DNA of 64,000 bases from a bacterium. Its GTDB lineage: Bacteria; UBP15; UBA6099. Every line of letters starts with the position of its first letter. Positions within the stretch are counted from its first letter, which is position 1. Below are positions 40,127 to 44,860 of the stretch, in pieces. The notes under the pieces were generated by a model that ran no database searches, was not told where the DNA came from, and saw nothing but the letters and a program-made list of their open reading frames with translations. The stretch covers positions 1 through 64,000 of the forward strand of contig JAKQPS010000005.1 of the NCBI GenBank assembly GCA_029564595.1, in the 5' to 3' direction. The position numbers were made by a program, and so were the translations under genes.

Positions 40127-40963
40127 TTATTTACAATCCGGATTTTTGAGCGCAGCCGGCGCTGGCGTCTTTTCTATCTGGGGTGTTTTTTCATCGGTTA
40201 TCCGTTTTTTTATCCTGTCCGCCCTCTTTTTTGAAGCGGGATGAGTTCTGAAAAATAAAACCAGAGGGTTTTTCGAATCTTTCGACGACGCTCTTTCGAA
40301 GAAATCCGACGTCCCCGCGGAGCCTCCATATAGTTTTGAAACAAGCTCGAAACCGTAATCGTCGGCGGCATATTCCTGTTTCTGCGAAAACCGCATCTCC
40401 GCGCCAGCAGTCATCGACCCCAGATACTCGGTGACGGAACTGCTCGACCCCGTGACTATCGCAGAGAGAGCAAACAGCGCCAGAATCCTCCCCAGCCCTC
40501 TGAGATGATCCCGGTTGGAAAAATGGCCCAGCTCGTGCGCTAGGACCAAAGCTATTTCGTTCTCAGATTCAGCCTGCTTAAGAAGCCCTTCATAAACAAT
40601 GATGTTGCCGCCCGGCAATGCCGCCGCGTTCACCTCGTCGCCGCATATCAATATCGCGTTGTATTCCTCATATCTCTTCTGCGGTATAAGCGACGTAAGC
40701 CTGTCGAGCAGTTTTTGCAATTCTATTTGAGAAGCGTTAGGCTTTTTTTCGGATATCAAGAATTTTTCATCAAAGAAGCCGAAGAGGCGCTCCTCGGTCG
40801 ATACGGGCAGCCTTGCCGCGACAAACCCGGCGGCCATGCCGAGCGCCATATATAAGACTACCAACGCGCCTATCACGCCGAATAGAAGCAGAAAAAACTC
40901 GCGGAGCGGCGATGTCTTCTCCACGTTCACATTCTCTTCAAAATGTTTCGGCGTGTATTTCAA
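40127..40963 (-). CDS. M48-family membrane metallopeptidase
   Basis: A 278-residue zinc protease anchored by an N-terminal helix (about 24-50). The catalytic motif is VLAHELGHFSNRDH (HExxH), the third ligand Glu is in EYAADDYGFEL, and THPASKKRADRI is the family's late signature. Relatives HtpX, LoiP and BepA act on damaged membrane or outer-membrane proteins. The second hydrophobic stretch (about 160-180) is short. The gene follows the two UPF0145 genes by 5 bases, so the three are one transcription unit, and its job probably concerns envelope quality control. Confidence 0.92.
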   Translation of the reverse strand: MKYTPKHFEENVNVEKTSPLREFFLLLFGVIGALVVLYMALGMAAGFVAARLPVSTEERLFGFFDEKFLISEKKPNASQIELQKLLDRLTSLIPQKRYEEYNAILICGDEVNAAALPGGNIIVYEGLLKQAESENEIALVLAHELGHFSNRDHLRGLGRILALFALSAIVTGSSSSVTEYLGSMTAGAEMRFSQKQEYAADDYGFELVSKLYGGSAGTSDFFERASSKDSKNPLVLFFRTHPASKKRADRIKKRITDEKTPQIEKTPAPAALKNPDCK

Positions 40964-40968
40964 TCCTG

Positions 40969-41427
40969 TTATTTTTTGTAAATGACGGCGGTTCCGTAGG
41001 CAAGAACCTCGACCGCGCCGACAGCGTTCTTCCCTCCGGCGTTCTGTCCGATGGAAGACGTCTCATACCTTGTATTCAGGACAATGTCCGCCCCGGCCGC
41101 CTGCTTCTTCATTCTCAACGTTGCTTCCCGTCTTGCCCTGTCCACCAGCGTTTCATAGGCTCCGACCCGACCGCCGAATATTTTCCTGAGATTCGCCAGA
41201 ACCATCTTAAAATAGTCCAGTCCGACGCAAACGCTGCCCGACACCAGCCATGCGCTTTCCACCATTTCTTCGTCTTCCACATGCCTTATTGTGACAGCCG
41301 GCAGATTGAGCGTTTCCTTTTCCCTCGCGATTATCGAAGCGTAATGCTTCTTCTCAGCCGCATGTCCGGCCAGATATCCTAGCGCCAGCAAAAAAACGAA
41401 TACGCCAAGGTTTATCAGAGATTCCAT
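40969..41427 (-). CDS. Membrane-anchored UPF0145 (YbjQ) protein
   Basis: A 152-residue protein with an N-terminal membrane helix (about 5-23) fused to a YbjQ domain (about 50-152: LVSGSVCVGLDYFKMV, GGRVGAYETLVDRARREA, YGTAVIY). YbjQ forms pentamers and has been called a putative heavy-metal-binding fold; its role is unknown. It is a paralogue of the next gene upstream, with three bases between them. The helix would tether the domain to the inner membrane beside the M48 peptidase. Confidence 0.88.
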   Translation of the reverse strand: MESLINLGVFVFLLALGYLAGHAAEKKHYASIIAREKETLNLPAVTIRHVEDEEMVESAWLVSGSVCVGLDYFKMVLANLRKIFGGRVGAYETLVDRARREATLRMKKQAAGADIVLNTRYETSSIGQNAGGKNAVGAVEVLAYGTAVIYKK

Positions 41428-41430
41428 GGC

Positions 41431-41745
41431 TCACTCCACTCTGACGGCGGTTCCGTAGATGAACAACTCGGAAGCGCCCTGCGTGACGGACGATGTGGCA
41501 AACCTGATATTAACAACCGCGTTAGCCCCCATCCGCTCAGCCTCTTTCATCATCCTTCCGACCGACTCGTGCCTTGCCTCTTGCAACAACTCCGTGTATC
41601 CCCGGAGTTCGCCTCCTACTATGTTCTTCAATCCGGCGGCGATATCCTTGCCTATGTGTTTCGCCCTCACAGTGCTGCCGCTCACCAGTCCGAAGTGCTC
41701 AACCGTTTTTTTGCCGGGCACGTTTTCAAGGTTGGTCAGTATCAT
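41431..41745 (-). CDS. UPF0145 (YbjQ) protein, soluble form
   Basis: A 104-residue stand-alone YbjQ domain: TNLENVPGKKTVEHFGLVSG, VGGELRGYTELLQEARHES, MGANAVVNIRF and YGTAVRVE, matching Escherichia coli YbjQ in length and layout. Start ATG has GGAGCGG six bases ahead and a strong sigma-70 promoter further up. Tandem soluble and membrane-anchored forms suggest they mix into one ring at the membrane (inference). Confidence 0.94.
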   Translation of the reverse strand: MILTNLENVPGKKTVEHFGLVSGSTVRAKHIGKDIAAGLKNIVGGELRGYTELLQEARHESVGRMMKEAERMGANAVVNIRFATSSVTQGASELFIYGTAVRVE

Positions 41746-41873: not shown

Positions 41874-42041
41874 TCAGGCTTGTGCCGTTTTGTTCTCCGC
41901 AAGATGCTTCTGGTATGCTTTCCATCCCGGACACCAGCCGGTATGCCATTTCCAGAGCCTTGCCATCAGCGACTTCGGATTCTTCTCCGCCTTCCGCCTG
42001 AACGGACAATTCTCACATTTAATCTCGCTCTCTCCGCTCAT
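41874..42041 (-). CDS. 55-residue Cys/Trp-rich small protein
   Basis: A small gene read directly from the sequence. The protein begins MSGESEIKCENCPFRRKAE and continues with KNPKSLMARLWKWH, then TGWCPGWKAYQKHLAEN. Two Cys (9, 12) in CxxCP and a third Cys (37) in WCPGW could hold a metal with His33. A GGAGG site lies five bases before the ATG, and codon use looks normal. I recall similar short proteins with CxxCP and WCPGWK in anaerobic bacteria, but have no family name. It follows the TraB-like gene by 48 bases on the same strand and so may belong to the MoxR group. Confidence 0.78.
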   Translation of the reverse strand: MSGESEIKCENCPFRRKAEKNPKSLMARLWKWHTGWCPGWKAYQKHLAENKTAQA

Positions 42042-42089: not shown

Positions 42090-43928
42090 CTAGAAAATAT
42101 ATTTTTCAGCGATTCTTCGTATACGCTTGTCCCCCAGAACGTGAAAACGCTGGAGCTTGGACACGCTTTCCGGGTTCAATGTCGATATGGGAATAAAAAC
42201 TATGTGGACGCCTTTCGATTGAGCGATGTTTTTCAGAATGGATGATGGCGGATACTTCGCCACATAAGCGACGAACCTTTCTTGGGAGTTCATAATAGCG
42301 GCGTACAGAAGCAGGTCGGCCTCGTTGCGCGCAAAACCTTTTTCCCGGAGCGCGTCATACACAGCCCAGTAGTTCGCCATGCCTCGCGGAGGATAGACGC
42401 TTGTAAAACCGCCGAAACGGCATTGCGATATCCCCGGCCCGACCAGCGTTTCTCCGGGCGGAGTCGTCATCATCAGCAGGTCCGATTCGTAAGAGAATTC
42501 GCTGTGCCAAACGGCGCGCCACGGATATTTGTCAAGATTATCCTGATCGAAAATCACCGTGACAGGCCCGACGCTGCCTCGCGCGGACGGCGTTTCTTTT
42601 ACGTATATCTTGCCTGTCGCCGCGTTGCGCAGCGTCTCCCTCATGTCTATGCCGTCAAGGATGCTTGTCGTAAATTCTACTACCCGCGTTCTGTCTTCGG
42701 TCATAGACATAATAGCCCTGTCGCGGATAAAGGAGTTGTAATCTTCAAGCCTTATGTCTTCCGGGGTATGCGACACGTGCATCGACGAAAGGTCCCAAAC
42801 ATCCCGCCATTCCCCTTCGTAAAGCTCAGGCGGTCGTCTTCTCAGAGTCACCCGTTTCATGTTGCGTTTCCATGTCGTATTTCTGCGCCTGTTCAGTTTT
42901 ACCGTTTTTCTGCCAATCATTCCCTCGTCGCTTTGTTCAAACCTTCTGACAATGTATATATCGGGCAGCGACGGGTCAGGCTCGCAATGCGGATATCTCG
43001 TCGCGATCTCCATCAGCGCATGCGCAAACTCGTCTCCGCACACGCATTTAGCGGCGGTCAGAAGGTCCACCAAATCAGGCGTGAATTGAAGCGACGTCGC
43101 GCAAAGCTTTCTCAAATACCTGTGCAGAGCTGTTTTTGCGGAAGTCGATATCCTTCCCGCTTCGTCTTCAGCCTGCTCGATGAGCTTGGCGACTTCCTCG
43201 TTTCTGTCCATTTCTCCGATAATTCGCGCTGATTCGAATCTTCCAGCCACCGCCGGTATCTCTTCCAGAACCTCCTTCGCCGATTCAGGATGAAGATTCG
43301 CAAGGAAGGAAAGCGCGTCAGGCTCTTCGAGATCAAAATATTCAAACCCTCCGCCGGACTCGAGCATTTCTCTTATCCGCTCCCAATGAATCATCCCGCA
43401 GACGAAGAGAACCCGCCGTTCAAAACAGTTGAGACGGCGCAGGCTCGCCGCCATGTGCTGCTCCCGCATGTAGTCGAGCGAGCCTATCTCGCTTAACGGC
43501 ACGCGCTCCATCGTTTTCTCGTAATAAGCGGCGGCCCCGATTCTCGGCAGCGCCCAGTCATCCGGCGTATGCCTCAGTTCAGGCCCCGCAAGGTCGAATC
43601 TGTTAAGATCGATGAAATGAACCGGGATACGTCTTTCCAGTCCGATCCTGACTGAATGGACGATGGCGTCGCAAGGATCTATTGGGATGTAGGAATAGTC
43701 CTCTCCGTCCTGCGAAGCGCACGCCACAGTCAAGTTCGGGAGCCTCTTCACTCCTTGAATAATCAGACGCTTCAACGCCTGCGGGAACTCCACCGCGATT
43801 ATTTCGGGTTTAAATTCCTCTATAAGACGCTGCGCGCGCAACGCGAAGTAATACCTTGAATGAACGACAGGCGCGCAAAGTATATTGCCATGCCGGAAGA
43901 CGTTGTCGTCGATTTCGTCGAACATCAT
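42090..43928 (-). CDS. TraB/Tiki-superfamily-like protein (DUF5682-like) paired with MoxR
   Basis: A 612-residue soluble protein. The first 200 residues look like the TraB/Tiki/EreA-like hydrolase fold: His23 in APVVHSRYY, Glu47 in PEIIAVEFP, REQHMAASL (155-163) and His181 in CGMIHW, the places where this fold keeps its His/Glu/Arg site. The middle (230-330) is helical and the end (340-612), with two Arg-rich stretches (near 345-370), is unrecognised. The nearest known case is DUF5682, which is coded beside MoxR ATPases; the match is by motif only. It starts 26 bases after the MoxR gene. I infer that MoxR remodels or activates it; the substrate is unknown. Confidence 0.72.
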   Translation of the reverse strand: MMFDEIDDNVFRHGNILCAPVVHSRYYFALRAQRLIEEFKPEIIAVEFPQALKRLIIQGVKRLPNLTVACASQDGEDYSYIPIDPCDAIVHSVRIGLERRIPVHFIDLNRFDLAGPELRHTPDDWALPRIGAAAYYEKTMERVPLSEIGSLDYMREQHMAASLRRLNCFERRVLFVCGMIHWERIREMLESGGGFEYFDLEEPDALSFLANLHPESAKEVLEEIPAVAGRFESARIIGEMDRNEEVAKLIEQAEDEAGRISTSAKTALHRYLRKLCATSLQFTPDLVDLLTAAKCVCGDEFAHALMEIATRYPHCEPDPSLPDIYIVRRFEQSDEGMIGRKTVKLNRRRNTTWKRNMKRVTLRRRPPELYEGEWRDVWDLSSMHVSHTPEDIRLEDYNSFIRDRAIMSMTEDRTRVVEFTTSILDGIDMRETLRNAATGKIYVKETPSARGSVGPVTVIFDQDNLDKYPWRAVWHSEFSYESDLLMMTTPPGETLVGPGISQCRFGGFTSVYPPRGMANYWAVYDALREKGFARNEADLLLYAAIMNSQERFVAYVAKYPPSSILKNIAQSKGVHIVFIPISTLNPESVSKLQRFHVLGDKRIRRIAEKYIF

Positions 43929-43954
43929 TGAGCCTCGGATAAACGGCCCTTCGC

Positions 43955-44860
43955 TCAGTTCTCGTCAAAATCCAAGTTGTCGATGGGAAACTCTCCCTCG
44001 ATGAATAATTCCCGGTCGGGAAGCTCGTCTTCAAGAGAAGGATTTAGATAACGCAACGCGTCCTGTCCGAGAACGCTGTTTATCGAGAACGCCAGCCGGT
44101 CGGACTGAGAGCTTTGTTCCGCCTCCGCCAGCTTCACCGCGAACCTTAGTATGTTGATTCCGTCCCTAACGGTGTAAGGCTCGCCGAACATGTGCGCCCG
44201 CTGCAGAAAATCAACCACCGTCTCGAGCACGTTGTCTTCCGCCGGCGCGCAGTTCCTTCTTAATATCTCAAGCTCTTCCTCTCGTTCGGGAAAAAACATC
44301 TCAATCGAAGGTTGCAGCCTTGAATGGATATACTCAGGTATTTCGTACGCGCTGGAATCGTCGTTCATCGTCACGCACAAGATGAAATCCGGGTGGGCAT
44401 GAATCTTTATGCCTGCGACGACGCTTTCAACATACCTGCGGTTGTCAAGCAGAGGAGCGAGGGAAGCCCAGCTCTTTTCGCTCATCCTGTTGCCTTCGTC
44501 AAGCACGCACGCCTGCCCTTTTACCATAGCCGTCACAAGGCTCGAAGCGTGATATTTTATCTTTCCCTCCGACGATATCACGGGGGTGATAATCAGGTCT
44601 TCCGGCCGGGTGTCCATCGTGCACTGGAATATGTACACGTCCCTGTTCATCTTCATCTTCGCGGCCGCGTACGCCAGCGACGTCTTGCCCACTCCGGGTT
44701 TGCCTATGAGACGAGGGCTCATCGGCAAATCATTCTCGTCGATTTTTAGCCACGCCGCGCTCAACTGCCTCAACAGGTCTTCCCCGCCGACCCAGTCAAT
44801 CTTTATCTCATCAGGGTGCGAAAGCGAAAGCTCGACCCCGTCTATCACGATCGTTTTCAT
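43955..44860 (-). CDS. MoxR-family AAA+ ATPase
   Basis: A 301-residue AAA+ ATPase. Walker A GKPGVGKTS (53-61), Walker B ACVLDEGNRM (Asp121, Glu122), sensor CVTMND and an arginine-finger region near IHSRLQP are visible; the C-terminal lid ends in an acidic tail. MoxR proteins act as chaperones that insert metals or remodel partners, usually with a von Willebrand A protein. No such gene is adjacent; the neighbour is the TraB-like 612-residue protein. The start ATG 44860 lies 142 bases downstream of the GH4 gene, room for a separate promoter. Confidence 0.92.
   Translation of the reverse strand: MKTIVIDGVELSLSHPDEIKIDWVGGEDLLRQLSAAWLKIDENDLPMSPRLIGKPGVGKTSLAYAAAKMKMNRDVYIFQCTMDTRPEDLIITPVISSEGKIKYHASSLVTAMVKGQACVLDEGNRMSEKSWASLAPLLDNRRYVESVVAGIKIHAHPDFILCVTMNDDSSAYEIPEYIHSRLQPSIEMFFPEREEELEILRRNCAPAEDNVLETVVDFLQRAHMFGEPYTVRDGINILRFAVKLAEAEQSSQSDRLAFSINSVLGQDALRYLNPSLEDELPDRELFIEGEFPIDNLDFDEN

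Follow-up and report, generated by a model that had tools for sequence, protein, structure and literature searches.

A conserved pair of bacterial genes encoding a MoxR-clade ATPase and a TraB-like partner with a candidate pore-docking finger

The two genes and the ATPase

We characterized two adjacent genes on the minus strand of a 64,000-nt stretch of bacterial DNA (the window, by which we mean the whole stretch analysed). The upstream gene encodes an AAA+ ATPase and the downstream gene a 612-aa protein, referred to here as the partner. An earlier, sequence-only reading of the window had described the two as joined; it had the extent of both open reading frames right, but they are separate genes with no fusion and a gap of 26 nt. 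The features on which the analysis draws are as follows.

43955-44860, minus strand: MoxR-clade AAA+ ATPase gene, 301 aa, with a match to AAA_5
44681-44704, minus strand: Walker A motif, residues 53-60, GKPGVGKT
44525-44614, minus strand: helix-2-insert region, residues 83-112 (DTRPEDLIITPV...), read from the sequence and not from a structure
44486-44509, minus strand: Walker B motif, residues 118-125, CVLDEGNR
42090-43928, minus strand: partner gene, 612 aa, 26 nt past the ATPase stop, with 470 relatives in genome contigs
43029-43901, minus strand: N-terminal TraB/DUF5682-type domain of the partner, approximately residues 10-300, carrying H23, E47, D107, R155 and G178xxH181 and aligned to DUF5682 by hhalign
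42093-42782, minus strand: C-terminal domain of the partner, residues 383-612, its best-conserved part
42627-42656, minus strand: candidate finger motif DGIDMRETLR, residues 425-434, similar to the stretch ahead of the VWA domain in VWA proteins that partner MoxR
42546-42548, minus strand: D461, which comes after the post-finger strand and aligns with the first MIDAS Asp; the remainder of DxSxS is absent

The ATPase matches Pfam AAA_5 with an E-value of 1.3e-18 (67.8 bits vs. a cut-off of 22), and midasin, CbbQ, and NorQ are its nearest solved chains by sequence. In the ATPase alignment (A4), G53, K54, P55, G56, G58, K59, and T60 of Walker A, D121 and E122 of Walker B, and D83, T84, R85, P86, E87, D88, L89, P93, and V94 of the helix-2-insert region are invariant. 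The family therefore keeps the Walker residues which, together with the helix-2 insert, place it in the MoxR clade of AAA+ proteins. A family model scored its members at 165-384 bits and the other AAA+ genes tested at 37 bits or less, indicating that the ATPase represents a distinct and well-separated MoxR subfamily. By analogy with the rest of the MoxR clade, we propose that the helix-2-insert region, with its DTRPEDL motif, could be a finger-docking loop.

Distribution, pairing and gene neighbourhood

Relatives of the partner were collected by scanning genome contigs with a two-sequence profile, which returned 470 matches. The best 80 of these 470 were retained and come from Brachyspira and other Spirochaetes, the Geobacter and Desulfobacteria groups, Omnitrophota, Thermodesulfobacteriales, and Bryobacterales; in one further phylum, the partner is present in 56 of 77 genomes. 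The full-length protein is conserved across phyla at 26-39% identity, which is far above chance. A search of NCBIfam with the partner gave no meaningful match, a sequence search of the PDB gave no match of note, and no family name for the two-gene system was found in the libraries searched. Likewise, the mainly open-access literature covered on MoxR with TraB, EreA, or DUF5682 contains no description of the pair. A single plasmid record with the partner was found (Neochlamydia sp. S13), where RefSeq labels the products "AAA family ATPase" and "hypothetical protein," and no phage record with it was found. On the sole contig from a viral collection found to carry the pair (L231, IMG/VR), an integrase and a portal-like protein immediately adjoin it, and by inspection the partner there has lost the TraB His residues, the first one included.

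Most related loci contain both genes, with the ATPase upstream of the partner. Among 386 diverse genomes (approximately 327 genera), the partner occurs in 22, the ATPase in 23, and both in 21 (Fisher p about 2e-31, with no phylogenetic correction), leaving three exceptions: a partner-only genome in which the partner is cut by a contig end (G451), and two ATPase-only genomes (G249 and G387). The genes also keep company when unlinked, being 2.6 Mb (G229) and 0.4 Mb (G365) apart in single-contig genomes. When 11 genomes without an adjacent ATPase were searched (Brachyspira and others), an approximately 60% identical ATPase was found elsewhere in 10 of them, one being a fragment at a contig end and one containing an in-frame stop. 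In the draft genome to which locus L086 belongs no ATPase was found by this test, which did detect the linked control L038. Moreover, the distance matrices of the two proteins correlate closely over 89 pairs (Mantel r 0.975, a value that includes shared species history). Together, the ATPase and the partner are an obligate two-gene system across many bacterial phyla, even when megabases apart, and the pair is conserved well outside the window, as the sequence-only reading required.

Two kinds of divergent locus were also seen. The lone ATPases of G249 (L165:4697-5677) and G387 (L166:5174-6112) are of a variant type (SDTQPND/SDTLPND) and have no detectable partner, which could mean that the partner has diverged or that the ATPase acts alone. 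In G193 (L164:3595-5826), a much diverged pair consists of a 743-aa partner-like ORF following a divergent ATPase, in which the DGID motif is not evident, and this pair may be an intermediate or a sister family.

The recurrent neighbours of the pair are lineage-specific, with no general one among them and no sign of a role in defence. They comprise a penicillin-binding protein in Brachyspira, DnaA (by eye), D-Ala-D-Ala ligase, and a sigma-54 regulator in Desulfobacteria, and DAHP synthase in Omnitrophota. Ferrochelatase lies just upstream of the pair in about ten Geobacter-group loci (L047, L052, L054, L056, L075, L076, L082, L085, L090, L091, and L092), with hemE (by eye) and a radical SAM/SPASM gene in some. 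A link to tetrapyrroles or metals is possible for the Geobacter group only. Heme synthesis was raised by these loci as a client pathway, but it was not adopted because the ferrochelatase link is absent from other lineages.

The sequence-only reading had also singled out a 55-residue neighbour as a possible associate. This is a real gene at 41874-42041 (minus strand) with an AGGAGG ribosome site (CENCPFRRKAEKNPKSL...WHTGWCPGWKAYQ), and its conserved cysteines suggest that the product may be a small metal-binding protein. It has no Pfam or NCBIfam model, although 17 further genomes among the 386 encode homologues that are 30-61% identical. The family is present in 19 of the 386 genomes and does not overlap with the pair outside the genus of the window. 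An association is thus not supported, and the gene was rejected as a third component. Downstream of the 55-aa gene, at 40127-41745 on the same strand (minus), are two YbjQ-family genes and an M48 (LoiP/BepA-like) peptidase; such genes were not observed beside the pair in any other lineage.

The domains of the partner

The N-terminal domain of the partner is homologous to that of DUF5682, since hhalign aligned partner residues 17-294 with the DUF5682 N-terminus at a probability of 97.6 (E 2.7e-12), placing H23, E47, D107, R155, and G178xxH181 on the corresponding DUF5682 residues. In addition, TIGR00261 (traB) matched two of 17 partner members, with a best E-value of 1e-7, and DUF5682 weakly matched nine. 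These results support the earlier reading of a TraB/DUF5682-type domain with His, Glu, and a GxxH-like motif in the first 200 residues. They do not extend to DUF5682 membership, since the Pfam match to the window's partner is partial (15.2 bits vs. a cut-off of 26) and the relationship is confined to the N-terminal half. The putative site (H23, E47, D107, R155, and G178xxH181) is intact in the window, Spirochaetes, Desulfobacterota, and Omnitrophota and changed in two clades. In all 30 sequences of one phylum E47 is replaced by A, C, or G and H181 by D, while in Bryobacterales H23, R155, G178, and H181 are all altered; the first TraB-type His has also been lost, by inspection, in the G437 copy. 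In the clades that lost the site, the gene, the ATPase, and the C-terminus of the partner are still conserved. Because the site has been lost in some lineages, catalysis by the TraB-like domain cannot be the function that the family shares, and the emphasis of the sequence-only reading on TraB chemistry is not supported.

Conservation is instead strongest in the C-terminal domain, whose mean identity to the window is 41%, as against 28.5% for the N-terminal domain. D425, D428, R430, T432, W474, E477, S482, G499, G507, P514, W521, H596, and R604 do not vary among 110 sequences that span all clades, and R434 is kept in all but one. AlphaFold2 modelled the whole partner with a mean pLDDT of 82.5 and a pTM of 0.58, and the C-terminal domain alone with a pTM of 0.79 (the best of five models, the rest being clearly less confident). 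Neither model gave a Foldseek match in the PDB at E<=0.001, and the weak matches of the C-terminal domain (deaminase, integrase, Argonaute, and others) all had E >0.1. The C-terminus of the window's own partner had no Pfam match, and no VWA family was matched among its relatives. A Pfam "Mor" match to 18 C-terminal fragments (best E 0.0016) had no supporting context and was deemed due to chance.

The earlier statement that the last 270 residues match nothing therefore holds for Pfam and for folds in the PDB, but not for a profile of MoxR-partner VWA proteins, which detects the finger motif. The profile was built from 28 CoxE- and YehP-kind proteins with the pre-VWA segment included, and hhalign matched it to the C-terminal domain with a score of 35.4 (E 2e-4, probability 47%). 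Controls scored lower, with maxima of 30.1 for 300 column shuffles and 20.7 for 104 unrelated-alignment decoys. The signal sits in [LI]DxRxT[LI]R, ahead of the first strand; the finger segment alone gave an E-value of 7e-4, while the VWA body alone gave no signal against the C-terminal domain. A profile of three YehP-type sequences gave no signal, one of 11 sequences a marginal one, and the one of 28 a clear, finger-localised one. The AlphaFold2 domain model places a short helix flanked by short strands at the motif. In the NorQ/NorD system, where pore docking is established, the finger of NorD (deleted as residues 403-448) enters the NorQ pore and touches the NorQ helix-2 insert, and McrC is noted to dock likewise in McrB without a VWA domain (PMC13036017; PMC9976466). 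Because the motif in the partner directly precedes the strand leading to the MIDAS Asp position, we infer that it corresponds to a NorD-type finger. The match is of moderate strength and the motif short; we regard a finger of the MoxR-docking type in the partner as supported, though short of proof.

Relation to known systems and a proposed mechanism

MoxR ATPases are thought to act via VWA co-chaperones. As the sequence-only reading had observed, no VWA gene is adjacent to the pair in the window, and among the fetched flanks of 80 related loci only one contained a MIDAS-like ORF (874 aa, opposite strand). A CoxE-type VWA was absent from six pair-bearing genomes (G011, G106, G069, G116, G437, and G357), of which G106, G069, and G116 are single-contig, and a strong one was found in only seven of the 22 partner-bearing genomes (of 386). 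Within the partner itself, only D461 remains of the MIDAS DxSxS. With no VWA gene nearby and no MIDAS in the partner, the pair is by definition not a MoxR-VWA couple. Its architecture nevertheless resembles one: as in NorQ/NorD, CbbQ/CbbO, and CoxD/CoxE, a single-module MoxR ATPase is served by one dedicated protein, and as in MoxR-VWA partners, that protein combines an N-terminal domain with a C-terminal part that carries a finger motif. It differs in lacking a recognisable VWA body and in its TraB-like N-terminal domain, and the ATPase differs from NorQ in having DTRPEDL in place of the GRxLL helix-2-insert signature.

The DUF5682 system (PF18934, E. coli yehM type) shares a homologous N-terminal domain and a MoxR ATPase with the pair. 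However, it includes a separate VWA protein, which the pair does not, and the C-terminal half of the partner is unrelated to it. Furthermore, DUF5682-linked ATPases belong to another MoxR branch that the family model misses at E 1e-5, and family-model scores do not support descent of the ATPase from a DUF5682-linked (YehL-type) one. Genomes G229 and G221 contain both a DUF5682 system and a pair of the window's type. Among the DUF5682 loci L178-L181, a separate VWA gene with DQSGSM is next in L179 and L181, and a YehL-type ATPase is near in L178 and L179. The partner also shares positions with the TraB/PrgY/Tiki and ChaN superfamily, namely those of two His, of the Glu, the Asp, and the Arg, and of GxxH; it differs in that its first motif is PxxH and not GxxH, its site has been lost in some clades, and its C-terminal domain is a different one. 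The best reading of the sequences is that the pair works like a MoxR co-chaperone couple; the partner is not a DUF5682 member.

We consider it probable that the pair constitutes an undescribed two-gene MoxR chaperone system, in which a finger-docking co-chaperone without a recognisable VWA uses its TraB-like domain mainly as a client adaptor. The ATPase would form a hexameric ring, and the partner's finger (approximately residues 415-445, with the tip DGIDxRxTxR) would enter the ring pore and meet the DTRPEDL helix-2 insert. ATP hydrolysis would then twist or pull the C-terminal body of the partner, while the N-terminal domain, acting mainly as an adaptor, would grip a client protein that is thereby remodelled or matured. 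A bolder proposal, which we hold only tentatively, is that the VWA-type finger is mounted here on a new kind of C-terminal body that is not a VWA. The family would then define a third structural class among MoxR-type partners, alongside VWA proteins and McrC, within an obligate, broadly conserved chaperone pair.

Other explanations were weighed against this one. The partner could be mainly a TraB-like hydrolase (a metallo-peptidase or esterase), with the MoxR ring unfolding or delivering its substrate or gating its activity. The intact residues in the window and three other groups and the traB and DUF5682 similarity would fit such an enzyme. On the other hand, loss of the site in one phylum and Bryobacterales has left the rest of the system conserved, and we regard a mainly hydrolytic role as unlikely. 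Equally, the enzyme could reside in the C-terminal body, with the invariant E477, S482, H596, and R604 and the near-invariant D461 as catalytic residues activated by the ring through the finger, much as in McrBC. This would account for the many invariant polar residues and has a precedent in McrC, the non-VWA finger partner of an AAA+ ring. No enzyme family or fold was matched, no McrC or PD-(D/E)XK nuclease appeared among the Pfam matches of partner-family members, and no nuclease signature or restriction, mobile, or defence context accompanies the pair, which makes this arrangement rather improbable.

The sequence-only reading had pointed to putative conflict and quality-control islands, and an anti-phage or biological conflict module could be envisaged as a reduced form of the MoxR-vWA ternary systems, since MoxR-vWA conflict systems exist (PMC7159879) and one copy of the pair is on a plasmid and another beside a phage integrase. 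Those systems combine a vWA protein with a third component and variable effectors, whereas the pair has a constant two-gene architecture with neither a VWA nor a variable effector. PADLOC gave no match for the partner, the neighbours are housekeeping genes that differ by lineage, no phage records were found, and the pair is stable within clades, as its frequency in the phylum surveyed illustrates. A conflict role was therefore already disfavoured, and we think it very improbable.

Returning to the finger-docking co-chaperone, its obligate pairing in many phyla and an apparent finger without the usual body argue that this is an undescribed molecular machine and not a one-off. If this is true, a widespread obligate pair with a finger but no recognisable VWA or MIDAS would set apart the finger, as the requirement of the motor, from the body, as that of the client, and would allow the finger-in-pore model to be tested cleanly. 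The finding also offers a starting point on function for hundreds of genes that have no family name, including those of cultured Brachyspira and Geobacter-group bacteria.
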